DNA from: a virus | Virus record (IMG/VR): IMGVR_UViG_3300032093_000070 | Span: 17,010-81,009 of that record | Length of the DNA stretch: 64,000 nucleotides | Strand: one strand, 5' to 3' | Shown: positions 29,349 through 61,854 of the stretch, piece after piece | How positions within the stretch are numbered: the stretch's first letter is position 1 | How the letters are laid out: every line of letters starts with the position of its first letter | Position numbers and translations under genes: made by a program | The notes under the pieces: generated by a model | What the model was told of the DNA's origin: nothing | Seen by the model: only the letters and a program-made list of their open reading frames with translations | Database searches by the model: none

Positions 29349-29891
29349 CTAGGACTGAGCGTAAGTTGCAAACTGAGCGTCGTTGACCAACTCTTCAGGC
29401 ATGAGCTGAGCACACTTGAGAACAATAATTGTACCGCGGTCAGTGACATAACCTTGGGTCTGTGTCTGGATCGGACGATACAACTGACCCTGCCAAGCCA
29501 CTCGATACTTGTTAGCGAAGTTAATCTGTGGTCGGATAAAGCCGCGTTCATCAAAGAAAAGCTCAGGGCTAACTTCTTGTAGATCGTCAATGTTTACAGT
29601 GAGCTTGAGGGAGTCGGATGAGTAGAAGCCTCGTTGGTTAGCTTGATTAACACCATGGGTGATAGATGCGCTAATAACTAGTAGTTCGTAAGGGCCGTCC
29701 CATACGCGACCACTGCCGATTGGCTCAACATCATAGATAGGATCTTTAGTTGAGGAAACATCGTTGTAGATCCACCACTCCGCAGAGGTACCAAAAGGAT
29801 TAGTTGCATCAACAGTTATGCCAGTGCCTACTTCGTCAAGTTCCCAGTCAGTAGAGAACCGACCACCCGGCTCAAAGGATCTTTGTGGCAT
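29349..29891 (-). CDS. Structural protein, possible head-tail connector
   Basis: 180 residues, beta-rich, with EWWIYNDVSSTKDPIYDVEP, GYRVAW-like strands (NKYRVAWQGQLYRP) and a TDRGTIIVLKCAQLMPEEL end. The ANKYRVAWQGQ...G end resembles phage head-closure or neck proteins. It lies between the GT2 gene and the microprotein operon, close to the sheath and neck genes. Assignment is tentative. Confidence 0.55.
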   Translation of the reverse strand: MPQRSFEPGGRFSTDWELDEVGTGITVDATNPFGTSAEWWIYNDVSSTKDPIYDVEPIGSGRVWDGPYELLVISASITHGVNQANQRGFYSSDSLKLTVNIDDLQEVSPELFFDERGFIRPQINFANKYRVAWQGQLYRPIQTQTQGYVTDRGTIIVLKCAQLMPEELVNDAQFATYAQS

Positions 29892-30937
29892 TAGCTCTCC
29901 TTGGCTTTGTAGAATACTAGGTTACGGCTTAACCGCTCGTCTGTGGGGTTGAGCTCCACTGCCTTCTGCCCGTATTCAATAGCCAATTCTGTAAGCCCTA
30001 AGTTATAAGCAGCAAGCGCCGCTAAGTCATAAACCTCATGCCCCCAAGCAAAGTCTTCAACGATGTAGTCAAGTCTTTTTTCTTTTATAAGAAGGGCGTT
30101 CTGCGCCCAGTCAAGGCACAGGCTCCAGTCTTTGTCATAGTAGTGCCGCGCCAATAGAACCATTGGCTCTCTGCTACCAGAGTATTCAGCAATAGACTTT
30201 TCGCACCAGTAAGGTGCGTTCTCTGGTTCTACACGAGCAAGGTAATTCATAGCTGATGCTTTTTCAGGTGACCACCAAGCCATAGTTAAATAGCGTTTAA
30301 ATTCTTTTGCTGATTGACTATACAAACCGTGAAAGTAAAGTTCTCTTGCATAGTAAAACGACGCTCGTTCGCTATGCGGTTCTTCATGAACAGCCATGGC
30401 TAATAAAGGCAAGTACTGTCCGCGAGACTTTGTGTGATCTGGTCTGTGATGGATTTCAAAATTCATTTTCATGCGTTTTTCTTCAATACCATAGGGACTA
30501 GGTATTTCGTGGATCGGAAAACGCCAACGGTATCCAAAGCGAGTATGGATTCTAAAACCATCAAACTCTGTGCCAGGACTTCCATCTGGAAGCCATGATG
30601 TTATAAATCTGTATAGGGGTCTAGTAATCCCCTGCTCGTGCGCTCGCTCAAGTTCTTCACGCCAGCCGGGTTGTAGAACCTCGTCCATATCAAGAGCAAT
30701 GCAGTAATCAATATCTGTAGGTAGCATGAAGAGTGCGGCATTGCGGGCGTCATCAAAACGCCATGGCTTAATAGTTACTTGGTGAACATTGATCCCAAGC
30801 TCTAAAGCTTTCTCCACAGTACGGTCAGTTGACCCTGTGTCCATGATCATGAAGTAATCGGCGCCTTCGCCGGATCTAAACCAGCGTTCTACGAATTGTT
30901 CTTCGTTAAGGGCGATTGTATAAATCGCTACCTTCAT
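29891..30937 (-). CDS. GT2-family glycosyltransferase with TPR-like C-terminus
   Basis: 348 residues. The N-terminal GT-A domain has IYTIALNEEQFVERW, MDTGSTDRTVEKA and ALDMDEVL, the DxD-type metal site. The C-terminal half (about 185-345) is helical with TPR-like repeats (ASFYYARELYFHGLYSQSAK; NLGLTELAIEYGQKAVELNP). Such GT-TPR fusions can glycosylate proteins. It is co-transcribed with the collagen-like fibre genes through a 35-aa gene, with one-base overlaps, which points to fibre glycosylation. Donor and acceptor are unknown. Confidence 0.85.
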   Translation of the reverse strand: MKVAIYTIALNEEQFVERWFRSGEGADYFMIMDTGSTDRTVEKALELGINVHQVTIKPWRFDDARNAALFMLPTDIDYCIALDMDEVLQPGWREELERAHEQGITRPLYRFITSWLPDGSPGTEFDGFRIHTRFGYRWRFPIHEIPSPYGIEEKRMKMNFEIHHRPDHTKSRGQYLPLLAMAVHEEPHSERASFYYARELYFHGLYSQSAKEFKRYLTMAWWSPEKASAMNYLARVEPENAPYWCEKSIAEYSGSREPMVLLARHYYDKDWSLCLDWAQNALLIKEKRLDYIVEDFAWGHEVYDLAALAAYNLGLTELAIEYGQKAVELNPTDERLSRNLVFYKAKES

Positions 30938-31044
30938 TACTCAGAAAATACTAAGTCGTATCCGATTACTGCGCCAGAGTCGTCTGTTACTTCAAACTTC
31001 TCAGCACCAGTTTCTGGATCAATACCTAAACTTCTACGTGGCAT
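30937..31044 (-). CDS. 35-residue acidic protein between fibre and glycosyltransferase genes
   Basis: ATG at 31042-31044 overlaps the fibre stop (TAATG), and its own stop overlaps the glycosyltransferase ATG in the same way. The product RRSLGIDPETGAEKFEVTDD ends in a beta strand (GAVIGYDLVFSE). The exact chaining of both ends supports that it is translated. Function unknown. Confidence 0.65.
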   Translation of the reverse strand: MPRRSLGIDPETGAEKFEVTDDSGAVIGYDLVFSE

Positions 31045-32843
31045 TATTCGAACCTCCCCCACACTCCAACGATACTTGATGTAAAGGATGAAGCGGTAGT
31101 TGGAAGATCAGCTTGAGCAGATACCAAACCTGTCATTCTTGGAGAGAGCGCTCCCATTGCAGATGGGATTAGGTCAAACGCTGTATACAAGTTAGCTGGT
31201 GAGCTTCCTACCCAGATAACACCTAGGGCGTAGCGTTGACCCGCTAGTAGGGTATAGGTTGCTGGATACCCACCAGTGGTATCAAAGTTGCGAACATAAG
31301 CAGTGTTGGTGCTTGCAAATAGGCTGGTATCAGAGGCCGTTCTTGCTACTAATGTAGCAGTACTGCCGTCAAAGGTATACAAACCAAGTCGAGCAAGAGT
31401 AGTTCCAGTAGCCGCGGTAGCCGCGCTTACAACACGAATCTGATCAACCGTTACTTCATAACGAGGAGTAAAGAAAGTAAAGTAGACATTTCCTGTAGCC
31501 ACAGATCCATTCCAGTTACCTTGACGAGGTGCGACATCTACTGCACTGAGGTCTTCGTTTCTAGATCCGGCAGAGGCTGAGGTTTCATCAACCCAGATAA
31601 GTCCTGTAGAGGTAGAGGATTTAGCTTTGAGGACATAGGTGTCTGTTCCCACGGGAAGTCTAGTAATAGCATTAGATCCGGTCGCCACGAGTAGATCTCC
31701 CTTTGCTGTAGCAATATGGCTACCAAGCAAAGTGGTATCTGCAGCAGGAACTGTTACGGTTACATCCGCAACTGGATCTGTAAAGCTAAGAGTTGTTTCA
31801 TAGGCGTCAGCGCTAGATCCCTCAACCGTAATACTGGAGTCAGACAGATAAAGACCAGAGACTGTAGGTGAGGTTAGGGTAAGACCTGCGACAGTAGCGG
31901 CTGTTCCACCAAGAGCTACTGAGGTAGATCCAATAGTTACGCTGTCGTATTGAAGCTTAGCGTTAGTGACATTATCGTCTGCAATTTTAGTAGTAGTAAC
32001 CGATCCATCTACTGGTGTACGCTCATTAGTTAAACGAGTGTCATTTCCTTTAACTACTTCGCTAGTTCCGGCATCTCCAGTAGCCGCGACATTATGAGTG
32101 GATGCGGTACCAAGACCTGTTACTTGGGTGTTAGCGATGCTAATTAAAGACTGATTAATACCTACAGTTTGAGTAGGGCTATCGTATGTAATTGGTGATG
32201 TAGCAGTAACAACACTGTTAGGGCCAGTTGGACCTGTCGCTCCAGTGGCTCCTGTTGGGCCTGTATCACCTGTAGGACCAGTAGGGCCAGTATTACCTTG
32301 CGGACCAGTAGGGCCGGTAGCGCCAACAATTTGTCCTGCGCTATACCAAACAGATCCATCCCATATATAAAGATCGCCGTCTGCATCTACGATATACGCA
32401 TCGTTAATTGCAAGACCTACAGCAGGTAGTGCGCCTACTGTTGCAACGCTACCAATTAAATTAATACCAACACCTTGTGGACCAGTGGCTCCTGTAGCGC
32501 CAGTAGGGCCTGTAGGACCCACGCTTCCTGTTGCACCTGTCGCTCCAGTAGATCCAGTCGCACCAGTTTGAAGAGTTAAATTAAGAGTTTGATTTGGAGC
32601 TGTACCTGTAATTGTTGCTGCGGCGGGTCCAGCTGATACCGTTCCAATTGTTAAAGAATTAGTAGGTCCTGTTGGTCCAGTTGTACCTGATGAATAAGGA
32701 AGCGAGTTCCATGCTTGCGATCCATTACCAATTTTAAATTTGCCAGTATCGTATTCGTAACCAGCTTCACCTTGTGAAAGAATTGGGTTTGCAGATGTCC
32801 ACTGCGCTGCAGTGCCTCGTCTAAATTGAACTTTAACTGCCAT
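31044..32843 (-). CDS. Collagen-like tail fibre
   Basis: ATG at 32841-32843 (599 residues) is preferred, with GGAGGA upstream. The N-terminal domain [20 protein letters not shown] and [17 protein letters not shown] is a phage fibre/MTD-like start. Two collagen-like blocks follow, made of Gly-Pro-Thr and Gly-Ala-Thr triplets (about 60-130 and 175-220), separated by a short globular segment. A long beta-rich C-terminus ends in VVGVWGRFE-like strands (ending [11 protein letters not shown]). It is a trimeric tail fibre or capsid fibre. Pro occupies the X position of the triplets. Confidence 0.85.
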
Positions 32844-33184
32844 CAGGGTCCTCCGCAATCAACGGGGTCAACGCCACCATAGATCGATGTGGGATCTCCA
32901 CAATCGACATTTTGAAAAATAGGACCTTGTGGTCCTGTTGCACCTGTAGGACCAGTTGCTCCTGCACCAGTTGGTCCAGTTGGTCCAGTAGGTCCAGTAG
33001 GTCCCGGTACAGTAGAAGGTTCAGTTGATACAGGTCCTGTTGGTCCTGTAGCTCCAGTTGGTCCAGTAGGTCCAACTAAAGATATTACTACAGTTCGCCA
33101 AACATTTCCGTCCCATTCCCATGCTTGACCACCATAAGTATATTGTTGACCTATGGAAGGGGATGAGGGAAAATCTGCCGGCAT
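32843..33184 (-). CDS. Short collagen-like virion protein
   Basis: 113 residues: an N-terminal 35-residue domain ([28 protein letters not shown]) and a collagen-like tail of Gly-Pro-Thr and Gly-Ala-Thr triplets, ending in a cysteine-containing tip ([20 protein letters not shown]). The same N-terminal type (FPNSPTLNQEFTSGSTTWKW) begins the 155-aa collagen-like protein at 40574. It shares one base with the fibre gene. Confidence 0.8.
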
Positions 33185-33193
33185 GTTTTAATT

Positions 33194-33574
33194 CTACTGG
33201 TAAAGCCACATATCTTCGGGCTCTACCCAATGCTCTTGCAGAACAAAGTGCATCCCTAATTCTTTCATTCTTTCTTGGACTTGCCGCTGTGCGCCAGCCC
33301 CATAGTATGTTTCTAGCCCTTTTCCTTTTAGTTCATTTTCCCAGCCTGTACGAACCATATAAAATTCAGCGTAAGGACTCCAAGCTGCGTATACCCCCCA
33401 ACCTCCACTGTACTCAGCAACCACTTCCCATATGTCTACATCTTCAATTTGTAGCTCTCTTGCGTAGTCCCAATCTCTTTTAGGGGGAAGGATGACCTTG
33501 TCACTATCCATCCAATTAGGATCAAAGTACTCGCCAAAGTCCTTAAATATATTGTGGGTGGTTTTAAATCTCAT
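33194..33574 (-). CDS. Hypothetical protein beside the plus-strand cassette
   Basis: 126 residues, rich in Trp, Tyr and acidic residues (RDWDYARELQIEDVDIWEVV, YSGGWGVYAAWSPYAEFYMV). It is divergent to the 2OG oxygenase gene, with starts 47 bases apart. No good ribosome binding site precedes the ATG, and a TATACT at 33583-33588 would place the transcript start almost at the ATG, so leaderless translation is possible. Family not recognised. Confidence 0.6.
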   Translation of the reverse strand: MRFKTTHNIFKDFGEYFDPNWMDSDKVILPPKRDWDYARELQIEDVDIWEVVAEYSGGWGVYAAWSPYAEFYMVRTGWENELKGKGLETYYGAGAQRQVQERMKELGMHFVLQEHWVEPEDMWLYQ

Positions 33575-33584
33575 AGCAAAGTAG

Positions 33585-33590
33585 TATACT
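33585..33590 (+). promoter_or_regulatory. Candidate -10 element of the divergent promoter
   Basis: TATACT at 33585-33590 on the plus strand, inside the palindrome AGTATACT (33583-33590), so it also reads as TATACT on the minus strand. No good -35 box is seen (TTTTAA at 17-base spacing). GAAAGG, 12 bases before the ATG at 33622, is the only ribosome binding site candidate. Confidence 0.4.
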
Positions 33591-33621
33591 CACTGTACTT
33601 ACAGAAAGGTCATTAAAACTG

Positions 33622-34251
33622 ATGGCTACTCAAATACACGGTCTATTTCCTGGAGAACTATTGCCCTCTACCACCGTGGCAGGTTGCGTTGATATATTTG
33701 AAAATGCTTGGCCTAACCCAAAAGAGACCATAGAAATGGTTGAGGGTGAATGTGCCAAAATTGGTTCTGGCATGGCTTGGTCAAGAGCAACAACAATGGG
33801 TCAAGGCATTCATCAAAATATTAGAACTAATTATCATTTAGGAATAACTGAAGCGGGATCAACTTACGACAACCCTGTTGCTCACACAGTACATAATCAA
33901 ATGTATGTCCTTTTGCTATCTACAACTCTTCCTTATTCAAGGAAACATGATATTGAATACATGCAACATGAGCCGTACAACATGTTGAAGTACAGCGGAG
34001 GTCAAGAGTATAAAGCTCATGCGGACGGGACTACTGAAACTGGAAGAGCAATTTCTGCAATCGTTTATTTAAACGATGAATTTGAAGGTGGCGAAGTAGA
34101 GTTTGTAAACTTTGGCGTTAAAATAAAACCAGAGCCGGGAATGCTGTTACTGTTTCCTTCTACTTATCCTTACACCCATATAGCTCATCCAGTAACTTCT
34201 GGAACTAAATACGCTTTAGTAACTTGGATTCACGATAGGGCAATTAAATGA
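33622..34251 (+). CDS. 2OG-Fe(II) oxygenase, prolyl 4-hydroxylase-like
   Basis: 209 residues with the double-stranded beta-helix oxygenase signature: H133-x-D135 (YKAHADG), distal H189 and the 2-oxoglutarate-binding K196 (HPVTSGTKYALVTW). The AIVYLNDEFEGGEVEF and PGMLLLFPS strands match prolyl 4-hydroxylase-type enzymes. It is first in a plus-strand operon inside a minus-strand fibre region whose flanks encode proline-containing collagen-like proteins. Hydroxylation of fibre proline is the simplest inferred role; a sugar or DNA base is also possible. Confidence 0.88.
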   Translation: MATQIHGLFPGELLPSTTVAGCVDIFENAWPNPKETIEMVEGECAKIGSGMAWSRATTMGQGIHQNIRTNYHLGITEAGSTYDNPVAHTVHNQMYVLLLSTTLPYSRKHDIEYMQHEPYNMLKYSGGQEYKAHADGTTETGRAISAIVYLNDEFEGGEVEFVNFGVKIKPEPGMLLLFPSTYPYTHIAHPVTSGTKYALVTWIHDRAIK

Positions 34252-34871
34252 ACGAAGATTTTAAAACTAAAAAGTACTGTGTTGTTGAGTCTGGTCTTTC
34301 TAAAGACATTATAAATTTGGTTACTCAATACGCCCTTTTTGATGAAATGCAGAATTACAGCCCAGAGACAAGTGAACAACAGGTTCCGGGCGCTCACAGT
34401 TGTTATGCCGATCCTTTGATGGAGTCTCTCTTGCTTCATTTGCAACCAGAGATTGAAAAACATACTGGGCTATCTCTATACCCTACTTACTCTTACTACC
34501 GCGTCTATCACCCAGGAGACGAATTAAAACACCATGTTGACAGGCCTTCATGCGAAATATCTTTAACGATATCTTTTGAGTTTGATTTTAAAGGGGAGCT
34601 AAAAGCTTGGCCTATATACATAGATGGTACCCCTGTCGAACTAATGCCTGGTCAAATGGCTATTTATCGAGGAATTGATTTAGATCACTGGAGAGAAAAG
34701 TTAGAGGCCCCAGAGGGATCCTGGCATGTACAAGCTTTCCTTCATTATGTAGATGTAAACGGGCCGCATGCCGAGTATAAGTGGGATAAGAGAAACTCAA
34801 TAGGAGTAGCAAAACCAAATGTAATTTCAAACGCTACACCTAAAAAGAGTTATATTACTTATACAAAATGA
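34248..34871 (+). CDS. Second 2OG-Fe(II) oxygenase-like protein
   Basis: 207 residues, coupled to the first oxygenase by an ATGA overlap. The iron triad is H96-x-D98 (KHHVDRP) and H147 in DLDHWREKL. The YSYYRVYHPGDELKHHVD lead-in and LMPGQMAIYRG strand are typical of the superfamily. The [DE]HWRE motif is shared with the third oxygenase at 61027. A different substrate position from the first enzyme is likely. Confidence 0.8.
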   Translation: MNEDFKTKKYCVVESGLSKDIINLVTQYALFDEMQNYSPETSEQQVPGAHSCYADPLMESLLLHLQPEIEKHTGLSLYPTYSYYRVYHPGDELKHHVDRPSCEISLTISFEFDFKGELKAWPIYIDGTPVELMPGQMAIYRGIDLDHWREKLEAPEGSWHVQAFLHYVDVNGPHAEYKWDKRNSIGVAKPNVISNATPKKSYITYTK

Positions 34872-36502
34872 TTGTTGTAGGAGTAAGCAGATTCCACAAC
34901 TCCTCTGTTTGTTTAATAAAAGATGGGGAAATACTTTTCCACATAGACAACGAACGCCTATCTAATATTAAATACGACAGGTATCCTTTTTTAGCCTTGT
35001 CTAAAATAAAAGAGTATGTTGACCATGTTGATGTTGTAGCGATCGCCGGTCTTGGTCCAACTGTACCCGGGGAATACTTTGAAAGCACAGATGTCTACAC
35101 TACTTTTATTCGTGGGCTTGGTAAAACTTTCTTTAACTCAGACATAAAAATTTATAACTTTAGTATGGAGCACCATTTGACTCATGCTGCATCTGCGTTT
35201 TATTCCTCTGGGTTTTCTAATGCTCTCTGTATAGTAAAAGATGGGATGGGATCTGAGGTCTATTTAAATGATTCAATGTTTCTTGAAGGCACCTTTGGGA
35301 GAGAAACAATGTCTGTGTTTAAGGCGTCTTATCCAAGCAAGTTTAGTCGTTTACATCAAGAGGTTCTTGTTAACTTTAAAACCGATCCTATCTACCTAAA
35401 AGAAGGTGTTTCTGTTACAAATAATTTTGGAGAGGCGCTTGCGTTTGAAGATACATCAAAGGCTTTTGGTTTTCACGGCCTTGATGCAGGTAAAGTAATG
35501 GGCATGTCGTCTTACGGTAAATCAAATAAAAACATTCCACCCATATATGTAGACGGAAGAATAAACACTAATATTTTTTATGTGGGTAGCTCTTTATTGG
35601 ATCGAGAGTTGAGGTACAACAAGTTTAACGATTTTCAAGATAAAGCTGATTTTGCCTATTCCTTACAAAAAGCAACGCAAACACATGTAAAAGATCAAAT
35701 TATTAAATGGCATGAAAGCACAGGAGTAAAAGATATTTGTTTATCTGGCGGGTTCTTTTTAAACTGTGTTGCTAATTACGAATATCTTAAAGACCTCCCA
35801 AAAGGTGTACGACTTTATATAGAACCTATATCAAGTGACTCTGGAACAGCTATGGGTGCCGCAAAATTAGCGTGGCACATGGAAACAAAAGATATGTCTA
35901 TCAGAGAACAAAAATCCGTATATTACGGTCCAATGCCTGTTATTGATAGTAATAAATATGTAAAAAACACATCTAGTTCTGAGGTGGCAAACAAACTTGT
36001 AAAAGGAAAAATTATTGCCATATATCAAGGTAGATCAGAAGCTGGACCTAGGGCCTTAGGCAATAGAAGTATTTTATTTGACCCTAGAGTTAGAGATGGA
36101 AAAGACATTGTAAACAGGGTTAAAAAGAGAGAATGGTTTAGACCCTTCGCGGGTACGGTTCTTCTTGATTATGCCCACGAGTGGTTTGATCTTAGGGGTC
36201 TTGAGGAAAGTCCCTTTATGATGTATGCCGTTGATGTTTTAGAAGATAAGAAAGACAAAATTCCAGCCATTGTTCATGTAGACGGAACATGTCGAATTCA
36301 AACAGTTACCAGAGAGCAGAACCCGCATTACTACGATTTAATAAATGAGTTCTATAAACTTACTGGCGTCCCAATACTATTTAACACTTCGTTTAACTTA
36401 GCTGGAGATTGCATTGTAGAGACCTTAGACGATGCGATCTCTACAGTGCAGGAAAGTGATATTGACTTTCTTTATCTTCCAGAACTACAAGTATTACTTT
36501 AA
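34868..36502 (+). CDS. O-carbamoyltransferase (NodU/CmcH/TobZ family)
   Basis: 544 residues with both family domains. The N-terminal kinase-like fold carries FHNSSVCLIKDGEILF, the metal-binding HHLTHAASAFYSS (H102, H106) and KDGMGSE. The C-terminal domain has QGRSEAGPRALGNRSILFDP, the family's most conserved motif. The family carbamoylates hydroxyl groups of small molecules and sugars, using carbamoyl phosphate and ATP. It overlaps the previous gene as ATGA, so hydroxylation followed by carbamoylation is plausible. Its A+T-rich codon use differs from the flanking fibre genes. Confidence 0.92.
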   Translation: MIVVGVSRFHNSSVCLIKDGEILFHIDNERLSNIKYDRYPFLALSKIKEYVDHVDVVAIAGLGPTVPGEYFESTDVYTTFIRGLGKTFFNSDIKIYNFSMEHHLTHAASAFYSSGFSNALCIVKDGMGSEVYLNDSMFLEGTFGRETMSVFKASYPSKFSRLHQEVLVNFKTDPIYLKEGVSVTNNFGEALAFEDTSKAFGFHGLDAGKVMGMSSYGKSNKNIPPIYVDGRINTNIFYVGSSLLDRELRYNKFNDFQDKADFAYSLQKATQTHVKDQIIKWHESTGVKDICLSGGFFLNCVANYEYLKDLPKGVRLYIEPISSDSGTAMGAAKLAWHMETKDMSIREQKSVYYGPMPVIDSNKYVKNTSSSEVANKLVKGKIIAIYQGRSEAGPRALGNRSILFDPRVRDGKDIVNRVKKREWFRPFAGTVLLDYAHEWFDLRGLEESPFMMYAVDVLEDKKDKIPAIVHVDGTCRIQTVTREQNPHYYDLINEFYKLTGVPILFNTSFNLAGDCIVETLDDAISTVQESDIDFLYLPELQVLL

Positions 36503-37467
36503 GAATTAACTGGGTAGCGGATAATCACAACGCCGTGACCACCAGCTCCGCCTTCTCCACCAGGAGTTGGAGGAGGAGATGCTCCAGCACCGCCTCCGCC
36601 TCCGCCACCAAGACCGTTTGTTCCAGCGTATCCAGTACTTGGACCAGAACTGTTTAACCAACCACCGGCTCCGCCACCGCCAGGTCCGCCAGCTCCGCCA
36701 GCAACTCCCGGTGCGGGACCTCCGCCTCCGCCTCCGCCGCCTCCGGCGTAAGTAATAGAAGAACCTGAAATAGAAAATGCTAAACCGCTTCCGCCAACAG
36801 TTACACGGCCTTGACCTCCAGGGTTACCAGCGCTTCCAGCACCACCACCACTAGATCCACTATAAATTGGCGAGTTAATGCAGTCGCCACCTTTAAATCC
36901 ATAACCAATTCCGCCACCACTAGGTCCCTGTGTTGCAGATCCTCCGGGTGCGTTTGGTTGTGATCCACCACCACCGCCACCACCGCCGGATCCGCCTGGA
37001 CCTCCAAAGCTTCCTGGACCTCCAGGTCCGCATCCGCCGTAGCCACCACCGATAGCAGTGATTCCATTGAATACTGAGTTGCCACCTTGGTTTCCTGGTG
37101 ACTGAGAGTTTCCTGCGGTAAATGTAGCTCCCGCTCCAACTGTTACAGATAAAGCACCAGATGTTACTGGGCTTGCAGAGTGATAAACAAGACCACCTGC
37201 TCCAGCACCACCGCCACCATCTGAACCACCGGTGTTTGCGCCAGAGTTTCTAGATCCACCAGATCCACCGCCAGCAAGCACTAATACTTCAACATTTCCA
37301 GAAGCAGTGGCAGTAAAAGTTTGAGCACCACCTGTATAGTTAAAAGTATGAATGCGGTAACCACCAGCAGTTGTAATGGTTCCGCCAGTAGAGTCGCTTA
37401 ATCTGGCAGTTGGTCTAAACCGTCCCTGTGGTCCGAACGAAGATCGAACAGATGCTATAAAAGGCAT
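36499..37467 (-). CDS. Glycine-rich fibre tip protein, cassette copy B
   Basis: 322 residues: an N-terminal domain (VRSSFGPQGRFRPTARLSDS, GGTITTAGGYRIHTF) and a long Gly/Ser/Ala-rich body (runs of glycine from about residue 60) ending in HGVVIIRYPVNS. The paralogue at 41041 has the same start and end (GGTITTAGGYRIHAF and GIVVIRYPI). Glycine-rich adhesin tips of this type determine receptor binding in some T-even phages. Its 3' end overlaps the plus-strand carbamoyltransferase by 4 bases (convergent). Confidence 0.85.
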   Translation of the reverse strand: MPFIASVRSSFGPQGRFRPTARLSDSTGGTITTAGGYRIHTFNYTGGAQTFTATASGNVEVLVLAGGGSGGSRNSGANTGGSDGGGGAGAGGLVYHSASPVTSGALSVTVGAGATFTAGNSQSPGNQGGNSVFNGITAIGGGYGGCGPGGPGSFGGPGGSGGGGGGGGSQPNAPGGSATQGPSGGGIGYGFKGGDCINSPIYSGSSGGGAGSAGNPGGQGRVTVGGSGLAFSISGSSITYAGGGGGGGGGPAPGVAGGAGGPGGGGAGGWLNSSGPSTGYAGTNGLGGGGGGGAGASPPPTPGGEGGAGGHGVVIIRYPVNS

Positions 37468-37476
37468 TTAAGCTCC

Positions 37477-39951
37477 TTAGAAGTTTAGAGACGCTGCGCC
37501 GTAGACGATCCAAGAACCACCTGAAGTGCGTTGCATTGTAAAGTTGAAGATATCAATCTTATTAGCAGATGAGGTTGGAGTTGGAGCAGCACTACCTAAC
37601 CAACGAATAGTTTGAGAAGCTCCTGCAATTTGGAAAGTTGTTGGAATGTATCCGGTAGAACCTTGTGTAACTATGACGTTAATTGTCATAATTTTAGATC
37701 CTTCTGTAGGAACATTTGTTACGTTAAAGGTCATTGCGCCAGAAGGAGCGGTAGCGATATAGAAAATGTTTCCAGCAGTCCAATCAAGGGTTCCCACATT
37801 GGAAGCTAGGGTTACATCAACTACCTGCTCACGAAGTTCTTGAACGTCTGTAGTACCAGAGAAGGACGCTCCACCAGTAAATGTAAGAGATCCGGAAGAA
37901 GAAACTCCACCGTTGGCTGTAAGTAACCCAGTAACTCCAAGGGTACCCGCAACTGCGGCGTTTCCAGTTGTTGCGTTAACAGTGAACTTATTAGTTGCGA
38001 CGGCAAAGTTTCCTGTTACATCTCCAGTACCGCCAACTGCAAGAGTTCCCGTAGCTTCGATGTTCTTTGCCTTAAAGTCCGCAAATACTAAACCACCTTC
38101 AGAGAAGTTAACTGTAGATGTAGGTTTTGTTGTTGCGTCCGCAAATATTTTAATAATTCCATCTGAAGCGTCACGAACAATTCCTGAGAACTTGCGTCGA
38201 GCAGATACAGATGCGGATCCTGTTGGACTTACGGCTGTTGAAGACACATTTGATGCAGTCTTAGCGTAGGTAAATGTAGTTGAAGTAGGCACGGTAGTAA
38301 TTTGATATGTGCCGTTAAATGTGGCGTCTACGCCTGTTACTGTAACCCAATCACCAACTAGATAGTTGTGGTTTGCTGCTGTGGTTAGGGTAGCCACATT
38401 TGAAGTAAGAGCCTTGTTATTAACAACCGCAGTAATAGCTGATACGGTTACAGCGTACTCCCCAATTAATCCAAGATCAAGAGTGTCTGCGTTGTTAGCG
38501 TTACCAACAAATACAAGTGGGTCAGAAACCGCTAGGTTAGATGTAGTAGTAGATCCACCACCAAATGAAAGGTTACCTACGATTGCCACATCACCAGCAA
38601 TATTCATATCGCCTTGGATACCCACGCCACCAACAACTGTTAGAGCACCTGTTGTAGGAGAGGTAGATTCCGTTGGAATTTCAATATGAACATTTACATC
38701 TGGAGTAATTTCCATCTGTGTGTTGTCAGATCCCAAACCTCCAGCGGCAAAAACAATCTTGTTTTCTGCGCCAGTATCGCCTGTAGCAAGAACAAGGTTT
38801 CCGTTTCCAGATGATCCGACAGGGGCGGTTACGAAAATGTAACCGTCGTTAGGACCTGTGATGGTGAACTCTGGATCGCTAAAGGTAGAACTTGTGATAC
38901 CTAAATCAATATAACCAGCAAAGTCAGTTCCGTTATCTGGGTAAGCAATGAAGTCGGAAGACGCATTAGGATCAGTGCTGGTGTTTTGCATGATGACCTG
39001 TGAGTAGTCATCTCCATCAATAGTAAAGAAAGCTACTGGGTTAGTAAAGCCTGTTACCGCAGATACAGTACCGCCTGATGCAACAGAGGTTACATTTGAT
39101 GCGGTTACGGCATAGGTAAATGTAGTAGTGGTCGGGGTATCAATAATTTCATGAGTACCGTTAAAAGTTGCATCTACCCCAGCTACAGTTACAAATTGGA
39201 AAGGAGAGTAGCCATGAGCTGCGCTTGTTGTAAGTGTTGCTACGTTAGACGTTAAAGCTTTGTTGGTAACAGTCTTAACATTTGTTCCGTTAGCGTCTGC
39301 CGTAGTTTTGGCATCTGCACCTACATAAAGAGCGCCGGATGTGTTTGATACTTCGGTATCCCCATCAACGGTTAATCCTGCCAGAGTTGGTGTCCCTGTC
39401 CAAGATGCTGATGTTCCATCAGTAGTTAAAACTTTTCCAGCGTTACCTGCTTGATTTGGATATGTTCCGTCTACTAACTTATCCCAAAACGCAGTATCTG
39501 TTGGGGCATTACCAGAGCTAGTGTTAGCTGTAAGGATGTAAGCAGATCCGCCGTAAGAAACTACATCACTCTTTTGATAAGTTGCAACACCTGAATAAGC
39601 TCCTTCGTACTGAATTCCATCAGAGATAAGAGTAAAGAAGCTGGTATTAGTTGGTGCTGTTCCCGGAGAAGCGTCTGCGGTGCAAAGGTATAACTTTCCA
39701 CCTTGAGAGATTACTTCGCCAACTTTGTATCCAGTGCTACCAGAGTACGCACCAACATATTTAAGACCAGATAAAATTAAATTCCAGTAAGTTGTATTAG
39801 TTGGAGCATACCCGCTTGCTGTTGTTGCAAACTTGTAGTGGTACAGGTTTCCACCGTAGCTGACTACATCGTTAAACTCGTAACTGGTTGCGCCGCTATA
39901 AACGCCTGTATAGGTAAAGCGCAGCTTTCCTAGATCAATGATTTGGGACAT
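37477..39951 (-). CDS. Long tail fibre, cassette copy B
   Basis: 824 residues. The N-terminus LGKLRFTYTGVYSGATSYEF is followed by three related 50-residue repeats (GAYSGSTGYKVGEVISQGGK with LYLC; then APTNTSFF type ends), resembling small carbohydrate-binding modules. Two KALTSNVATLTT beta modules lie at about 225-300 and 505-575, and a shared fibre body (QGDMNIAGDVAIVGNLSFGG) is nearly the same in the paralogue at 41978. Likely a trimeric adhesin. Confidence 0.85.
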   Translation of the reverse strand: MSQIIDLGKLRFTYTGVYSGATSYEFNDVVSYGGNLYHYKFATTASGYAPTNTTYWNLILSGLKYVGAYSGSTGYKVGEVISQGGKLYLCTADASPGTAPTNTSFFTLISDGIQYEGAYSGVATYQKSDVVSYGGSAYILTANTSSGNAPTDTAFWDKLVDGTYPNQAGNAGKVLTTDGTSASWTGTPTLAGLTVDGDTEVSNTSGALYVGADAKTTADANGTNVKTVTNKALTSNVATLTTSAAHGYSPFQFVTVAGVDATFNGTHEIIDTPTTTTFTYAVTASNVTSVASGGTVSAVTGFTNPVAFFTIDGDDYSQVIMQNTSTDPNASSDFIAYPDNGTDFAGYIDLGITSSTFSDPEFTITGPNDGYIFVTAPVGSSGNGNLVLATGDTGAENKIVFAAGGLGSDNTQMEITPDVNVHIEIPTESTSPTTGALTVVGGVGIQGDMNIAGDVAIVGNLSFGGGSTTTSNLAVSDPLVFVGNANNADTLDLGLIGEYAVTVSAITAVVNNKALTSNVATLTTAANHNYLVGDWVTVTGVDATFNGTYQITTVPTSTTFTYAKTASNVSSTAVSPTGSASVSARRKFSGIVRDASDGIIKIFADATTKPTSTVNFSEGGLVFADFKAKNIEATGTLAVGGTGDVTGNFAVATNKFTVNATTGNAAVAGTLGVTGLLTANGGVSSSGSLTFTGGASFSGTTDVQELREQVVDVTLASNVGTLDWTAGNIFYIATAPSGAMTFNVTNVPTEGSKIMTINVIVTQGSTGYIPTTFQIAGASQTIRWLGSAAPTPTSSANKIDIFNFTMQRTSGGSWIVYGAASLNF

Positions 39952-40573: not shown

Positions 40574-41041
40574 TCAGACTCCTAACCACCACGATAATGA
40601 GTAACTACCCGATCCACCTTCGCCTGTTGCTCCAGTAGCTCCTGTCGCACCAGTCGCTCCAGTAGCACCTGTAGGACCCGGTACTGTTGATGCCGGTCCA
40701 GTTGCACCTGTCGGTCCTTGAGGACCTACAGATCCGGCAGGACCTGTGGCACCTGTTGGACCAATTGGGGCAGCACCTGCTTCCACCCAGTATCCGTCAT
40801 AATAAATAAAAATTCCGCCTGTACTTGGATCAAACCAAGCATCACCAGCTTGCGGATTTACTGGAGCAGTAGATGTAGAAGACCAAACACCAGGTGCACC
40901 TGTAGCTCCCGTGGCTCCTGTAGGTCCGACAACAGGTGTGCGAATTACATTCCACGCAACACCATCCCACTTCCATGTAGTGGATCCAGAAGTAAATTCT
41001 TGATTGAGTGTAGGTGAATTAGGAAAATCAATTGCTGTCAT
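40574..41041 (-). CDS. Short collagen-like fibre protein, cassette copy B
   Basis: 155 residues: N-terminal domain FPNSPTLNQEFTSGSTTWKW, a globular segment (APGVWSSTSTAPVNPQAGDA, WFDPSTGGIFIYYDG) and two collagen-like stretches of Gly-Pro/Ala-Thr triplets, ending GSYSLSWWLGV. The WF...IYYDGYWVE segment is also in the longer collagen-like protein at 44683. It overlaps the Gly-rich gene at 41041 by one base. Confidence 0.8.
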   Translation of the reverse strand: MTAIDFPNSPTLNQEFTSGSTTWKWDGVAWNVIRTPVVGPTGATGATGAPGVWSSTSTAPVNPQAGDAWFDPSTGGIFIYYDGYWVEAGAAPIGPTGATGPAGSVGPQGPTGATGPASTVPGPTGATGATGATGATGATGEGGSGSYSLSWWLGV

Positions 41042-41973
41042 TAGATTGGATACCTAATAACTACAATACCTGAACCACCTACAACAACATCAGGAGGGTC
41101 ACTCCAAGAAGAACCTCCACCACCTGAGCCAGTATTAGCACCACCAGCTCCTCCTGGTCGGTTATCACCTACTGTTCCAGATGCTCCAGAGTTCAATGCG
41201 CTACCGCCGCCAGATCCTGCTGATCCACCACTTGTGGCAGAGCCACCGCCACCTCCACCTATACCACCATTTCCAGATTGCCCACCTGTATAAACACTAC
41301 CCCCACCGCCTGCAGCCCAATAATAATTTGTTCCTAAAATAGAATTTTGTAAACCGCTTCCGCCATGAGCAGTATCGCTACCTGATGAGCCGGCGCTTCC
41401 AGCACCACCACCTCCGCCGCCTCTTCTGTCGTTATTAATTCCAGGTCTACCGGCTCCGCCAGCATTACCTGTTCCTTGACCATTAGCAGATCCACCAGCA
41501 GTACCGTTGTCCGCACCACCGCCGCCTGAGCCACCAGATTTACCAGATGTAGAGTTTGATCCACCAGCATGTGAACCACCAAATCCACCACCGCTAGAAA
41601 TTAAATTAAACGCAGATGAATCTCCACCATTTGTACCTCCAGAGTCATTATTTCCTGAAGCAATTCCACCATTACCAACAACAATTGAATAATTTTGTTG
41701 ATTTATAGCAAGTGAACCAGACCTGTAGCCTCCAGCGCCTCCGCCTCCGCCAATAGCGCCTCCGCCTCCGCCACCGCCAATAATTAAATATTCAACTGTT
41801 CCGCCAGAATCTGGTACAAAAGTTGAAGTTCCAACAGCAGTAAAAGCATGAATGCGATATCCGCCGGCAGTTGTAATAGTTCCGCCAGTACTGCCGGTAC
41901 CTAAACGACCAGTTTGTCCTCTAAGTCTGCTTTGAACTCCGTAGCTTCCACGAACAGAGCTAACAAAAGGCAT
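41041..41973 (-). CDS. Glycine-rich fibre tip protein, cassette copy A
   Basis: 310 residues. The start VSSVRGSYGVQSRLRGQTGR and GGTITTAGGYRIHAF is followed by a body of Gly/Ser/Asn-rich repeats and an IVVIRYPI end. Paralogous to the 322-aa gene at 36499. The glycine-run loops differ between the copies, as expected if they contact different receptors. Confidence 0.85.
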   Translation of the reverse strand: MPFVSSVRGSYGVQSRLRGQTGRLGTGSTGGTITTAGGYRIHAFTAVGTSTFVPDSGGTVEYLIIGGGGGGGAIGGGGGAGGYRSGSLAINQQNYSIVVGNGGIASGNNDSGGTNGGDSSAFNLISSGGGFGGSHAGGSNSTSGKSGGSGGGGADNGTAGGSANGQGTGNAGGAGRPGINNDRRGGGGGGAGSAGSSGSDTAHGGSGLQNSILGTNYYWAAGGGGSVYTGGQSGNGGIGGGGGGSATSGGSAGSGGGSALNSGASGTVGDNRPGGAGGANTGSGGGGSSWSDPPDVVVGGSGIVVIRYPI

Positions 41974-44682: not shown

Positions 44683-46257
44683 TTATGCGCCCATTAACAA
44701 GAACGGGTGAAAGCCCGCTTCGCCAATTGGACCTGTTGGTCCCGTTGCGCCAGTTGGACCTGGAACAGTAGATGCTGGCCCTGTAGCTCCTGTTGGTCCT
44801 GTTGGACCCGTAGGACCTGTGGGACCTGTTGCACCAGCAGGTCCTGGACCTCCAGCTGGACCTGTAGGACCGGCTGGTCCCGCTGATCCGGTTGGTCCTG
44901 GCACTGTAGATGCTGGGCCTGTTGGGCCTGTTGGACCTGCGGGTCCTGTTGGACCAACATCTGAAGATGCCCATTCAACCCAGAAGCTGTCGTAATAAAC
45001 ATAAACTTTTGCGTTATTAGTATTAAACCAAACATCACCTAGTGCAGGTGAAGCTGGCGCTGTTGCACTTGCATACCAAATACCAGTCGCACCAGTTGGT
45101 CCAACGATCTGTCCAACATCATCCCATGAAGATGTTCCAGTATCCCAAACATAAAGATGACCGTTATCACCAACAACAATATATGCGTCACCAGCAGCAC
45201 CGGTAGCAGGAAGATCTCCAGTAGTAGAAACGCTTCCTAAAATATTTAATGAAGTTCCTTGAGCACCAGTAGGTCCTGTTGGACCTGTGGGTCCTTGAAC
45301 GGTTGAGTCTGCTCCAGTTGGACCCGTAGCACCAGTAGGTCCTGTAGCGCCTGTGGCACCAGTAGGTCCTGGAACAATTGAATCAGCTCCAGTTGCGCCT
45401 GTTGCTCCCGTCGCACCTGTCGCACCGATTGCTCCAGTTGCTCCCGTTGCTCCAGTTGCTCCAACATCTCCAGTCGCGCCCGTTGCACCAGTGGCTCCCG
45501 TTGGTCCGGGCACAGTAGAATCTGCGCCAGTAGCTCCTGTAGGGCCAGTAGCACCAGTGGCACCAGTTGATCCAGCAGGTCCTGGTATTAGTGAATCTGC
45601 ACCAGTAGCACCAGTTGCACCTGTAGCTCCAGTTGGACCTGAAACACCCTGTGGTCCTGTCGCTCCAGTAGCACCCGTAGCACCTGCTACACCAGTAGCA
45701 CCCGTAGGTCCCGTTGCTCCTGTAGCACCTGTTGCGCCATTAGTACCCGCTGTGCCAGTTGCACCCTGCGGACCAGTAGGACCAACAATTTGTCCTACAT
45801 TGTTCCAACTATCGCCATCCCATACATAAAGATCTCCATTTGAGTCAACAATATATGCGTCGTTAACTGCAGCAGTAGCGCCAAGTGAAGCAAGATACGA
45901 TGGATCGGGAACTGATCCTCTAAATGTTATTGATGTTCCTTGTGCACCAGTCGCACCAGTCGCACCCGCAGGTCCAGTTGCACCTGTTGGTCCAGCGGCG
46001 CCTGTAGCGCCTGTAGGACCCGCATCACCTTCTGGGCCTACAAAACCAATAGGACCCTGTGGACCAGTGGCTCCTGTGGCTCCTGTGGCCCCTGTTGCAC
46101 CTGTTAAACCAGTAGCACCAGTTGCGCCTGTGGCGCCTGTAGCACCTGTTGCACCAGCGGCACCTGCTGCACCCGTAGGACCGGTGGCGCCATTACCACC
46201 AATAGATACTTGAATTTCAGGTTGCGGAGATACCGATATTTGAATTTCTTCTGGCAT
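44683..46257 (-). CDS. Long collagen-like fibre protein, cassette copy A
   Basis: 524 residues, mostly Gly-Pro-Thr and Gly-Ala-Thr triplets in several long blocks. The N-terminus is 20 residues of [17 protein letters not shown] type. Two or three globular inserts of about 40 residues ([20 protein letters not shown], then [10 protein letters not shown]; a second [18 protein letters not shown]) repeat the same sequence type. The end FHPFLLMGA has no collagen repeats. Triplets with Pro in X and Thr in Y match the type O-glycosylated in Bacillus BclA. Confidence 0.88.
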
Positions 46258-57122: not shown

Positions 57123-57659
57123 ATGCTTAATATCAGAAAAGAAGATATGGCAGGAATGGCGGTGCTAGCGGTGTATGGATTAGTTCTAGGAGCTCTTCCA
57201 CACGCGCTCGCGGCTAATGTAATACCTGAGCCCAAAGTAGCTGAGGTAGTCGTAGTTGATCCGCTGGACGAGTTTAGGAACGCTAAGTCGCTAGACGGCG
57301 CGGAACTAAAGTCTCTGCTTAAGGCAGTCGGTTTTGAGGGAAAATCCCTCAGGGTTGCCTGGGCAGTTGCCATGAAAGAGTCAAACGGTCGCCCATTAGC
57401 TCATAATGACGATCTAAGTACGGGGGACAACTCTTACGGGATATTCCAGATCAACATGCTTGGTCAACTTGGAATAGATCGACTAGAGAAGTTTGACCTA
57501 AAAGCTAATAAGGATCTCTACGATCCAGTAACAAACGCGCAGATTGCTTACCATATGACCGCTGGTGGAAAAGACTGGTCGTCTTGGAAAATCAATCCCG
57601 AAGCAAGTAACGGACAACGATACGACTCCTTTTATGAGGAGTTTCCAAAAGGAAAATAA
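57123..57659 (+). CDS. Exported lytic transglycosylase-like muralytic protein
   Basis: 178 residues. A hydrophobic N-terminal segment (about 12-31, ending ALAAN) looks like a signal peptide. The SLT-like domain has catalytic-type E86 (AVAMKESNGRPLAHN), SYGIFQINM at 104-112 and NAQIAYHMTAGGKDWSSW near the end. It would cleave peptidoglycan glycans outside the cytoplasm without holin. First gene of the plus-strand unit, with WhiB after it (one-base overlap). Confidence 0.85.
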   Translation: MLNIRKEDMAGMAVLAVYGLVLGALPHALAANVIPEPKVAEVVVVDPLDEFRNAKSLDGAELKSLLKAVGFEGKSLRVAWAVAMKESNGRPLAHNDDLSTGDNSYGIFQINMLGQLGIDRLEKFDLKANKDLYDPVTNAQIAYHMTAGGKDWSSWKINPEASNGQRYDSFYEEFPKGK

Positions 57660-57910
57660 TGTACGCAAAAATAGCCGCACCAACCTTTGATGGCACCCAG
57701 CCATGTAAAGGAATGAACACGGAAGAATTCTTCCCAGTGGATCGCATAGAAGAAGAGAGATTTAAAAGGGCTATCAAGCCTGTGTGCGATTCTTGCAAGT
57801 TCAGATCTGAGTGCCTTCAGTGGGCGCTTGACAATAGAGAGATTGGGATCTGGGCTGGAACAACTACAGATGAGCGACGGCTCATTATTCGACGATTAAG
57901 GCGTAAATAG
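57659..57910 (+). CDS. WhiB-family transcription factor
   Basis: 83 residues with the four iron-sulphur cysteines C16, C43, C46, C52 in the CX(n)CxxCX5C pattern, then GIWAGTTTDERR and a basic end (RRLIIRRLRRK). WhiB-like proteins are confined to actinobacteria and their phages and act with the host sigma factor. It probably reprograms host or late-gene transcription, or blocks a host WhiB. A bidirectional terminator follows. Confidence 0.93.
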   Translation: MYAKIAAPTFDGTQPCKGMNTEEFFPVDRIEEERFKRAIKPVCDSCKFRSECLQWALDNREIGIWAGTTTDERRLIIRRLRRK

Positions 57911-59022: not shown

Positions 59023-60066
59023 CTAACGGAGATTAAGCAGGGACTCGTCCCAGTCTCGATACCAACAGGCTTTGTTCCCTTCCGTTGGGTGACCGTTCCA
59101 AGAAAAGTCCCCTGTTGTTGCCGATGGGGGTTTGTTCCAGTATTTCCATCCTTGAAGCCTTCCAGCCTGATTCATGTTTCTTTGTATATAACTAGTGAAG
59201 GTGCTTCCAGAACTGCCGATAAAGTCTTGCGAGTAGTGCATAACAAGATTACAGAGTAGCCCAAAGGACACCTCATCTTGAAACTTAAACTCCTTAAATT
59301 CTTTCTCAAAGTTATTGATTATGTACTCGTCTAAAAGAATAAATTTGTCTTTATTGCGTAAGACCATAGTGTTAGTGGGTTCGTCTGTGGAAAGGATCAC
59401 GGGAAGATCTCCCACTAGTTCGTCTAAGCCAGCAGTAAACTGCTCAAATGTAGGTTTATCGTATTGATTGTCAGTCAGCCGTAAATGGGCTCCCTTGAAC
59501 CTGCCAATAGAGTTTGCTATAACCTCAGATAGTTGAATGTATTCCGCTTTAAATCTAACCTTAGACAAGGCTTGATCTAACTCCTTTGATCGATCATAAA
59601 AAAAGGTTGAATATTGCCCTAGTGTACGTTTCAAGTGAATATTTTTATTAGGGGGAATAATAAGGTTTTTCCGTTTAAAGGCAAAAGCAAGTTCTCTCTT
59701 AGAGGTCTCCCTAATAGAACTGTAATAGTCCATCATGTCCTCTATAAGGATGTCTTCTTGAGGAAAATAAGGTATTTTGTCTTCTATTAATATAATACTG
59801 TTGTACGGCTCAAAGTCTAACAAGTCGTCAATTCTTGGGTACTGGTCATATCTTAAAAAATTGTCTCGTTTATTCCATTGCCAGTTTGCACTGTATATAC
59901 CGACACGATTGTTGTCATAAACCGAATTAGGACGATCCCTTAGGTTGTGCACTACTAAATCTCTCTTATATACATAAGAAAGACCTACGGCTAACTCCAT
60001 ACTTATAGTCTGATTAAATAATCCACAAGGGTTGTAAAGTTGAAAAAATATTAAATTATTTTTCAT
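59023..60066 (-). CDS. O-fucosyltransferase-like glycosyltransferase
   Basis: ATG at 60064-60066 is preferred over a TTG 6 bases upstream. The 347-residue protein has a Rossmann-type start (FQLYNPCGLFNQTISMELAV), the GAHLRLTDNQY segment (like the H.R..D motif of O-fucosyltransferases), LSTDEPTN and DFIGSSGSTFTSYIQRN near the end, the donor-site motif of GT-B fucosyltransferases. It overlaps the GDP-sugar epimerase gene by 11 bases, indicating that it uses that enzyme's product. Acceptor unknown. Confidence 0.75.
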   Translation of the reverse strand: MKNNLIFFQLYNPCGLFNQTISMELAVGLSYVYKRDLVVHNLRDRPNSVYDNNRVGIYSANWQWNKRDNFLRYDQYPRIDDLLDFEPYNSIILIEDKIPYFPQEDILIEDMMDYYSSIRETSKRELAFAFKRKNLIIPPNKNIHLKRTLGQYSTFFYDRSKELDQALSKVRFKAEYIQLSEVIANSIGRFKGAHLRLTDNQYDKPTFEQFTAGLDELVGDLPVILSTDEPTNTMVLRNKDKFILLDEYIINNFEKEFKEFKFQDEVSFGLLCNLVMHYSQDFIGSSGSTFTSYIQRNMNQAGRLQGWKYWNKPPSATTGDFSWNGHPTEGNKACWYRDWDESLLNLR

Positions 60067-61018
60067 TTTCAATCTGTTTTACGATCCAGTCGTAGGTATG
60101 TTTTAACCCTTCTTCTAAGTTTTCTTTTGGAGACCTGCCTAGAACCTTGTGTATTAAATTATTATCAGATGTTCTTGCCTTTACCCCAGTTGGGCCTTCA
60201 ATATGTATCTTTTTAAGATCTTTGTTTGCAATAGCACAGACCATATCAACTAATTGATTTATAGACACCGTGGCTGTAGAACCAATATTAATAGGATCAA
60301 AAAAAGTTCTTTCTCTATAAAAAGCTTTAGTAAACTCTACGCACTCGTCAACATACAAAAAAGATCTAAGCTGCGACCCATCTCCCCAAATTTCTATATT
60401 GTCAGTTGCTTGAGCTACTTTTCGACAAATAGCAGCAGGGGCTTTTTCTTTCCCACCTTTCCAGGTACCTTGAGGACCAAAAACATTGTGGTATCTTCCA
60501 ATTTTATTTTTCATACCGTAGTCTCGGTTGTATGCTAAATAAATGCGCTCGCTAAAAAGTTTTTCCCATCCATATTCGGTATCTGGATGCGCTGGATAAG
60601 CGGTACTTTCCTCACATGTAAAGTTATTAGGATTTATTTGATTATGTTCTGGGTATACGCAAGCCGAAGAAGAGAAAAAAACTCCGTGAATGCCTACTTC
60701 TTCTGCTCGTCTAACTATATTTAAGTTTATTAACGCCGAATTAGTTAATATAGAAGCATCATGGCTAGAACTTATGTACCCAATACCGCCCATGTCAGCC
60801 GCTAATTGGTATACCTCATCGTATTTTTGAGACATGACCCTATTTACTGTGTATCTATCTCGTAAATCAGCAACTACAAACACATCAGCTTGTGATTTAC
60901 CAAATTCTGGATGTTTTATATCCGACCCAACAACCCAATACCCTTCTTCTTTTAACGAGGTAACAAGGTGATTGCCAATAAAACCGCCAGCACCAAAAAC
61001 TAAAGCCGTCTTACTCAT
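60056..61018 (-). CDS. GDP-mannose 3,5-epimerase
   Basis: 320 residues; an extended SDR enzyme with GAGGFIG at 9-15. Catalytic residues match plant GDP-mannose 3,5-epimerase spacing: C120 (SSACVYPE), Y149/K153 (YGWEK, 29 residues later) and K192 (EKAPAA, 72 after the Cys). The GPQGTWKGGKEKAPAAICRK segment is nearly that of the plant enzyme. It would turn GDP-D-mannose into GDP-L-galactose. Strong AAGGAGC start. Rare in phages. Confidence 0.85.
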   Translation of the reverse strand: MSKTALVFGAGGFIGNHLVTSLKEEGYWVVGSDIKHPEFGKSQADVFVVADLRDRYTVNRVMSQKYDEVYQLAADMGGIGYISSSHDASILTNSALINLNIVRRAEEVGIHGVFFSSSACVYPEHNQINPNNFTCEESTAYPAHPDTEYGWEKLFSERIYLAYNRDYGMKNKIGRYHNVFGPQGTWKGGKEKAPAAICRKVAQATDNIEIWGDGSQLRSFLYVDECVEFTKAFYRERTFFDPINIGSTATVSINQLVDMVCAIANKDLKKIHIEGPTGVKARTSDNNLIHKVLGRSPKENLEEGLKHTYDWIVKQIENEK

Positions 61019-61026
61019 GGTGCTCC

Positions 61027-61608: not shown

Positions 61609-61610
61609 AA

Positions 61611-61850: not shown

Positions 61851-61854
61851 GAGG

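Follow-up and report, generated by a model that had tools for sequence, protein, structure and literature searches.

Organization of the operon

The IMG/VR virus record IMGVR_UViG_3300032093_000070 (G000) is 81 kb long, and the 64 kb of it analysed here, referred to as the window, contain a plus-strand operon for two 2-oxoglutarate (2OG)-Fe(II) oxygenases and a carbamoyltransferase (CT) inside a tail fibre locus. The genes are arranged as oxyA (33622-34251), oxyB (34248-34871) and CT (34868-36502), with ATGA overlaps at both the oxyA-oxyB and the oxyB-CT junctions. The stop codon of CT overlaps by 4 bp the stop codon of a convergent minus-strand gene (36499-37467), which encodes a glycine-rich fibre tip. 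The tail sheath, portal, terminase, DNA polymerase, ribonucleotide reductase and WhiB genes of the window point to a contractile-tailed phage that is not of the T4 type, and the host, judged from WhiB, is probably actinobacterial. The WhiB-family gene that points to such a host (57659-57910) is among the few plus-strand genes apart from the operon.

An initial annotation of this DNA had described a three-gene operon coupled by ATGA overlaps, running against its neighbours, rich in A+T and equipped with its own promoter region. All three open reading frames and both overlaps are present, and the immediate neighbours lie on the minus strand on both sides. The G+C content of the operon is 38.2%, compared with 44.7% overall, which is the lowest or next to lowest among 612 stretches of the same size. 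The promoter was not borne out. The divergent gap upstream of the operon (33575-33621, 47 bp) holds a weak -10-like TATACT, and its best match in a sigma-70 scan (9/12) does not rise above shuffles; sigma-70-like sites around the operon start are fewer than in shuffled sequence.

Enzyme families

OxyA (209 aa) is a 2OG-Fe(II) oxygenase of the prolyl 4-hydroxylase (P4H) type (PF13640, E 3e-16) with an iron triad, H133-x-D135...H186, that is conserved in 9 homologues. By sequence, its nearest solved structures are bacterial P4Hs (3itq/5hv0) and a viral P4H (5c5t). The second oxygenase, OxyB (207 aa), falls in phrog_2954 (E 2e-45), and its triad, H96-x-D98...H147 (H147-W-R149), is invariant in 64 homologues. 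Both proteins thus carry the complete HxD...H triad of 2OG-Fe(II) oxygenases that had been read from the sequence earlier. OxyB has no match in Pfam, and a sequence search of the Protein Data Bank returned nothing meaningful for it, so that a fold search was needed instead. The top Foldseek matches of its AlphaFold2 model (predicted local distance difference test, pLDDT, 91.6) are Pseudomonas putida P4H, alone and bound to EF-Tu (4j25/4iw3), PHD2 and the viral collagen P4H 5c5t; the fold matches prolyl hydroxylases that act on proteins. The double-stranded beta-helix nearest to prolyl hydroxylases is seen for OxyB in the model and for OxyA through sequence only, and proline hydroxylation by these prolyl-hydroxylase-type enzymes is itself predicted.

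In PHROGs, the family of OxyB bears the name 'ferrochelatase'. Because the triad is invariant and the fold lies near prolyl hydroxylases, this label is almost certainly a propagated error. Many cyanophage 'ferrochelatase' proteins (PHROG 2954/3531, T4-like GC 615; L002-L005, L287-L290) are likewise OxyB-type 2OG oxygenases by motif and fold, and the 'DNA endonuclease (V)' label of several proteins in those cyanophage runs looks similarly mistaken.

The third product, CT (544 aa), is a TobZ/NodU-type O-carbamoyltransferase, as the initial annotation had it, with matches to PF02543 and PF16861 (E 2e-61) and to phrog_1601 (E 2e-163). A Kae1-like N domain (PF02543) with an EHHLTHA motif is joined to a C domain (PF16861) with a GPRALGNRS motif, and both motifs are intact. 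This domain pair and its conserved motifs make the protein a class III (TobZ/GdmN) carbamoyltransferase, predicted from its sequence to use carbamoyl phosphate and ATP on a hydroxyl; its solved relatives are GdmN, TobZ and decarbamoylnovobiocin CT. The closest CTs are those of four T4-like cyanophages, P-RSM4, S-CAM8, S-SSM5 and S-MS29 (53-55% identity). In a CT tree, nine CTs form a clade termed clade I (Shimodaira-Hasegawa-like approximate likelihood ratio test, SH-aLRT, 98), and both oxygenase types lie near all nine. The carbamoyltransferase of S-MS29 is listed as pyrBI, an aspartate carbamoyltransferase (PMC10436341); it is probably the TobZ-type CT, which belongs to a different family.

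The glycine-rich tip

The minus-strand gene facing CT encodes a protein with a PF21722 (Gly_rich_2) match. Its AlphaFold2 model (pLDDT 87) has the glycine-rich lattice fold of the Pam3 gp24/gp38 type, with the cyanophage Pam3 fibre 7ypx and the Bxb1 tail tip 9d93 as top Foldseek matches (prob 1.0, TM-scores a moderate 0.42/0.52). The model suggests that the product sits at the fibre tip, with a predicted role in receptor binding. The glycine-rich domain of Pam3 has been described as lying at the distal end of the fibre and recognising the receptor (PMC9608196). A second glycine-rich tip of the window (41041-41973, minus strand, PF21722) has no enzyme cassette beside it and provides an internal control. 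This paralogue is 49.5% identical to the first tip, which makes it less similar than the cyanophage tips are.

Pairing of tip type with enzyme type

In the sequence comparisons, tip type follows CT and not the descent of the phage. Compared with the window tip, the tips of CT-carrying cyanophages score 703-740 and that of a record with oxyA-oxyB-CT (L093) scores 739. The paralogue of the window tip scores only 542, and sister phages (L090-L092), whose records have oxyA and a flavin halogenase but no CT, have tips that score 484-553. Absences of this kind are provisional, because many of the compared records are fragments; the complete cyanophage genomes are the firm exception. In P-RSM4, S-CAM8, S-SSM5 and S-MS29, the gene convergent with CT also scores as a glycine-rich tip and shares 26 or 54 bp with CT. 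The Pfam match was verified in S-CAM8, and a genome search established it in all four.

In a tree of 52 tips, 11 of the 12 CT-adjacent tips fall in one group (SH-aLRT 92, under 95), whose nine contigs are those of the nine clade-I CTs. The CT label changes twice on this tree, against a mean of 10.8 in shuffles. A scan of IMG/VR for the tip type retrieved two further records (L250, L251) with the same oxyA-oxyB-CT operon facing the same tip type; another record (L270) has the cyanophage arrangement. The tips of the window, L250 and L251 group at 99.

The cyanophage S-SM1 provides a further comparison. Its neighbouring fibre gene is 75-82% identical to those of CT-carrying cyanophages, whereas its tip is only 45-49% identical; the tips of CT-carrying cyanophages share 67-88%, and even the window tip is more like them than that of S-SM1. 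No CT lies in the tip region of S-SM1 that was examined, and none is annotated in a published table. Among clade-2 CTs, a Gly_rich_2 gene occurs within 5 kb of CT in 18 of the 21 records having one (expected 5.6), with a combined p-value of 0.0035 that is only indicative because those phages are related. A tblastn search of GenBank phages with the tip gave no match, apparently because low-complexity filtering masks the tip.

Exchange of cassettes at the locus

Relatives of the window phage carry other enzymes at the same place. In G047, the fibre-locus proteins are 71% and 85% identical to those of the window, and the slot of the operon holds a halogenase cassette and another tip. In G048, where the fibre protein is 77% identical, the slot holds a lone divergent CT (36%) that overlaps a different tip by 4 bp, and a further record (L256) has oxyA-oxyB-halogenase. 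Around the variable slot, a 126-aa gene, an Mtd_N/collagen-like fibre gene and a glycosyltransferase gene stay constant. The fibre protein encoded upstream of the tip gene (37477-39951, minus strand; phrog_9851, tail fibre) is also conserved in sisters with other tips and enzymes.

Such hypervariability, in which a single place holds different enzymes and tips, is what would be expected if CT and tip were transferred together by mere adjacency in a recombination hot spot of the fibre locus, while CT acted elsewhere, on the host envelope or a metabolite. This is the main rival explanation, and it gains some weight from cyanophage genomics, where enzymes of this kind count as auxiliary metabolic genes (PMC3037559; PMC10436341). 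However, tip and CT remain paired at identities as low as about 54%, in an actinophage-like myophage as well as in T4-like cyanophages; their stop codons still overlap, and the pairing is kept even though the oxygenases lie on opposite strands between the two phage groups. Clade-2 CTs, which are differently arranged, also lie near Gly_rich_2 genes. Moreover, among the 35 loci confirmed in the tip scan, no clade-I tip without an adjoining CT was found, a count that may have missed some. On this evidence, we regard co-transfer by adjacency alone as unlikely.

The 126-aa gene (33194-33574, minus strand), a possible tip assembly factor, has no family match in PHROGs or Pfam. Its 31 open reading frames among the loci are mostly beside tips of the phage group of the window. 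It accompanies glycine-rich tips whatever the enzyme cassette and was not found in cyanophage loci, and was consequently rejected as a part of the CT module. Long oxygenase runs next to halogenases and collagen-like or Gly_rich_2 genes in S-CREM1 (L289, 1306-9423) and syn9 (L293, 8344-21145), in which no CT is annotated, look like expanded forms of this type of locus. A phrog_7084 protein (L285:9772-10521, L092:8621-9352) adjoins halogenases and is possibly their partner.

Sugars, collagen and DNA as acceptors

The constant glycosyltransferase gene (29891-30937, minus strand) encodes a glycosyltransferase-2 and tetratricopeptide repeat protein (phrog_13126, E 7e-109) that adjoins the fibre genes and could supply a glycan. 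If this enzyme or host enzymes glycosylated the fibre or tip, CT might carbamoylate the sugar. The relatives of CT act on sugars and small molecules, and those of the NolO, TobZ and NovN kind carbamoylate sugars; in S-CAM1, the clade-2 CT sits among sugar-phosphate genes. The glycosyltransferase is nevertheless kept whatever the cassette, and the regions viewed around cyanophage clade-I CTs contain nothing annotated as a glycosyltransferase or sugar gene. Carbamoylation of a glycan therefore seems improbable.

Collagen-like fibres were the target proposed initially. Four collagen-like genes do lie near the operon, none of them an immediate neighbour: one with GPTGPT repeats (32843-33184, minus strand; PF01391 weak, below the cut-off), the Mtd_N/collagen-like fibre gene (31044-32858, minus strand; PF18454 and PF01391), and two at 40574-41041 and 44683-46257. 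The oxygenases could hydroxylate the GPT repeats and CT could carbamoylate hydroxyproline or threonine there, and OxyA has its closest similarity to P4Hs, for example that of Bacillus anthracis. Yet PF01391 is missing from all four cyanophage genomes that are complete and carry CT, as well as from the L093 record. It occurs in 3 of 26 records, and the sisters G039 and G041, for which no CT was found, have it. Because collagen is absent from these other CT carriers and present in sisters without a CT found, it does not follow CT, and it was rejected as the co-evolving target on presence and absence. OxyA, which is common to the sisters with collagen, could still act on it, and the collagen reading as a whole has little in its favour. 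The broader proposal of a fibre-modification system holds, and is now the best-supported reading, with the adjacent glycine-rich tip in place of collagen.

Modification of DNA bases had been raised as the alternative to fibres. One member of the family, a 5-hydroxymethylcytosine (5hmC) carbamoyltransferase found by MetaGPA through a PF00303-type partnership, carbamoylates a hydroxylated base (PMC8670742). However, PF00303 (thymidylate synthase/dCMP hydroxymethylase) is present in none of 48 records, nearly all of them CT-bearing, and nowhere in the 81-kb record. At TobZ positions 408, 421 and 423, mapped by motif spacing through GdmN, the window CT has I, G and R and the 5hmC enzyme I, C and T, so that two of the three differ. 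G421 and R423 are shared by the window CT, nearly all phage CTs listed and GdmN. On the CT tree, the branch of the 5hmC enzyme is too long for use. OxyA does match Tet_JBP, below the threshold, and the record encodes, outside the window, a DpdA-like/queuine tRNA-ribosyltransferase protein (phrog_887, L294:5415-6881). This gene is shared with the sisters G041, a halogenase phage, and G048 and is absent from CT-carrying cyanophages; it possibly hints at a 7-deazaguanine DNA modification unrelated to CT. Carbamoylation of DNA was rejected on the absence of PF00303, the marker residues, the sub-threshold Tet_JBP match and a DpdA-like gene that does not track CT, and it is the least probable of the readings considered here, with very little to recommend it.

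Proposed function of the enzyme-tip module

The operon and the adjacent tip probably form an exchangeable module in which the enzymes hydroxylate and carbamoylate the glycine-rich end of the fibre. From the gene structure, the enzyme families, the fold of the tip and the correspondence between tip type and enzyme, all of which are established, we infer the tip as substrate, its residues, the order of steps and the benefit. OxyA and OxyB would hydroxylate residues of the tip, the best guess being clade-specific prolines in its Gly-Pro-Gly motifs. CT would form a carbamoyl-adenylate from carbamoyl phosphate and ATP and transfer the carbamoyl group to tip hydroxyls, either newly installed ones or those of native serine and threonine. 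A protein acceptor for carbamoyl has a precedent in HypF, which S-carbamoylates the protein HypE at cysteine via carbamoyl-adenylate (PMC9633730). Because the decorated tip would be the receptor-contacting end of the fibre, its modification would be likely to affect the specificity for receptors, the ability to cope with variation in host receptors or the stability of the tip. A tip type and its finishing enzyme, whether CT or flavin halogenase, would be inherited as a pair and exchanged as a pair between phages.

Three prolines of the tip are candidate sites. Pro148 (codon 37024-37026) and Pro157 (36997-36999) are proline in all 11 clade-I tips and in 5% and 10% of other tips, respectively; Pro171 (36955-36957) is proline in 91% of clade-I tips and 5% of others. 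All three codons lie on the minus strand. As modification sites, they are hypothesis only and post hoc; since any monophyletic group has such positions, they are only the first places to look. Proline makes up 5.8% of CT-linked tips versus 3.6%, a weak difference (p 0.02, with kinship uncorrected) that is not used as support.

The initial annotation had suggested a hydroxyl installed first and carbamoylated second. This two-step path is favoured because both oxygenase types accompany all nine clade-I CTs, and hydroxylation followed by carbamoylation of one site is plausible. The lone, divergent CT of G048 (L284), which has no oxygenases at the same locus, indicates that they are not obligatory for every CT, so the two-step chemistry stays something we infer.

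Several points weigh against modification of the tip. The argument draws on sequence, models and gene context, and adjacent genes can be transferred together without working together. Independent lineages are few, about three: the window with L250 and L251, L093, and the cyanophages. The solved relatives of CT work on small molecules, and the distribution of OxyA reflects the lineage of the phage more than the type of cassette. In L284/G048, the divergent CT at the same locus has no oxygenase there and faces a tip of another clade. Finally, the tip tree comes from a quick search on low-complexity sequences, and its key grouping falls under 95.

A more general scheme can be advanced tentatively, with less assurance than the module itself. 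Tips and finishing enzymes may form swappable pairs, of which one type hydroxylates and O-carbamoylates tip side chains and another halogenates the tip. Tail tips might then draw on a wider chemical repertoire than the twenty amino acids provide, one that phage families exchange and that helps to set host recognition, and many cyanophage 2OG oxygenases and orphan viral halogenases might be tip-decorating rather than metabolic genes. Runs of 2OG oxygenase, carbamoyltransferase and flavin halogenase genes are widespread in marine and freshwater phages, and the enzyme-tip pairing gives all three enzyme types a concrete and testable substrate, the receptor-contacting tip, in cultured phages. If the scheme is true, protein sequence alone would not define the receptor-binding surface of a phage, which matters for host-range prediction.

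A second cluster in the window (59023-63308) may also decorate the virion or envelope. It comprises a 349-aa protein with no family match (59023-60072), a nucleotide-sugar epimerase (60056-61018), an OxyB-like 2OG oxygenase (61027-61617) and a protein with repeated KVxGTWR-like units (62283-63308).

Comparison with known systems

Viruses, phages among them, are known to encode enzymes that modify proteins of their own virions, such as glycosyltransferases and collagen hydroxylases. A search of the open-licence literature found no report of fibre-tip carbamoylation or of tip-enzyme pairing, which is not proof that none exists. For cyanophages, published lists place the oxygenase and CT genes among auxiliary metabolic genes whose role is unclear, not among fibre modifiers (PMC3037559; PMC10436341). 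Flavin halogenase genes are likewise classed as auxiliary metabolic genes, and literature guesses for such genes include 2-oxoglutarate sensing or pyrimidine synthesis.

Among tips, Pam3 gp24 and the T2-type gp38 proteins (S16, PP01) have GGGGxGG-type motifs like those of the window tip, whose fold matches Pam3 7ypx; S16 gp38 is not among its listed Foldseek matches. The available text of the sources describes no modification enzymes for these tips. Prolyl 4-hydroxylases, such as PBCV-1 vCPH, B. anthracis P4H and P. putida P4H acting on EF-Tu, resemble OxyA by sequence and OxyB by fold, at low identity. VirX1-type flavin halogenases are known from cyanophage Syn10, and Trp_halogenase-family enzymes fill the slot of the operon in sisters and adjoin Gly_rich_2 genes in syn9. 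These enzymes halogenate instead of carbamoylating, and none is present in the window. For VirX1, the one structurally studied viral halogenase, the portion of the review available gives no natural substrate.

TobZ and GdmN, as class III carbamoyltransferases, have the same domain pair and active-site motifs as the window CT; they modify secondary metabolites, whereas the gene context of the window CT points to a protein. The 5hmC carbamoyltransferase is of the same superfamily and, like the window CT, phage-borne, from which it differs at G421 and R423, and the window CT has no dCMP-hydroxymethylase partner. HypF resembles the proposed CT reaction in transferring carbamoyl from carbamoyl-adenylate to a protein, and differs in its cysteine acceptor and in being a four-domain class II enzyme. 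The closest parallel is found in the T4-like cyanophages P-RSM4, S-CAM8, S-SSM5 and S-MS29, which share with the window a homologous CT, both kinds of oxygenase and a convergent glycine-rich tip overlapping the CT stop codon. In their clusters, the oxygenases lie opposite to CT, whereas the window combines all three genes in a single operon in a non-T4 phage.

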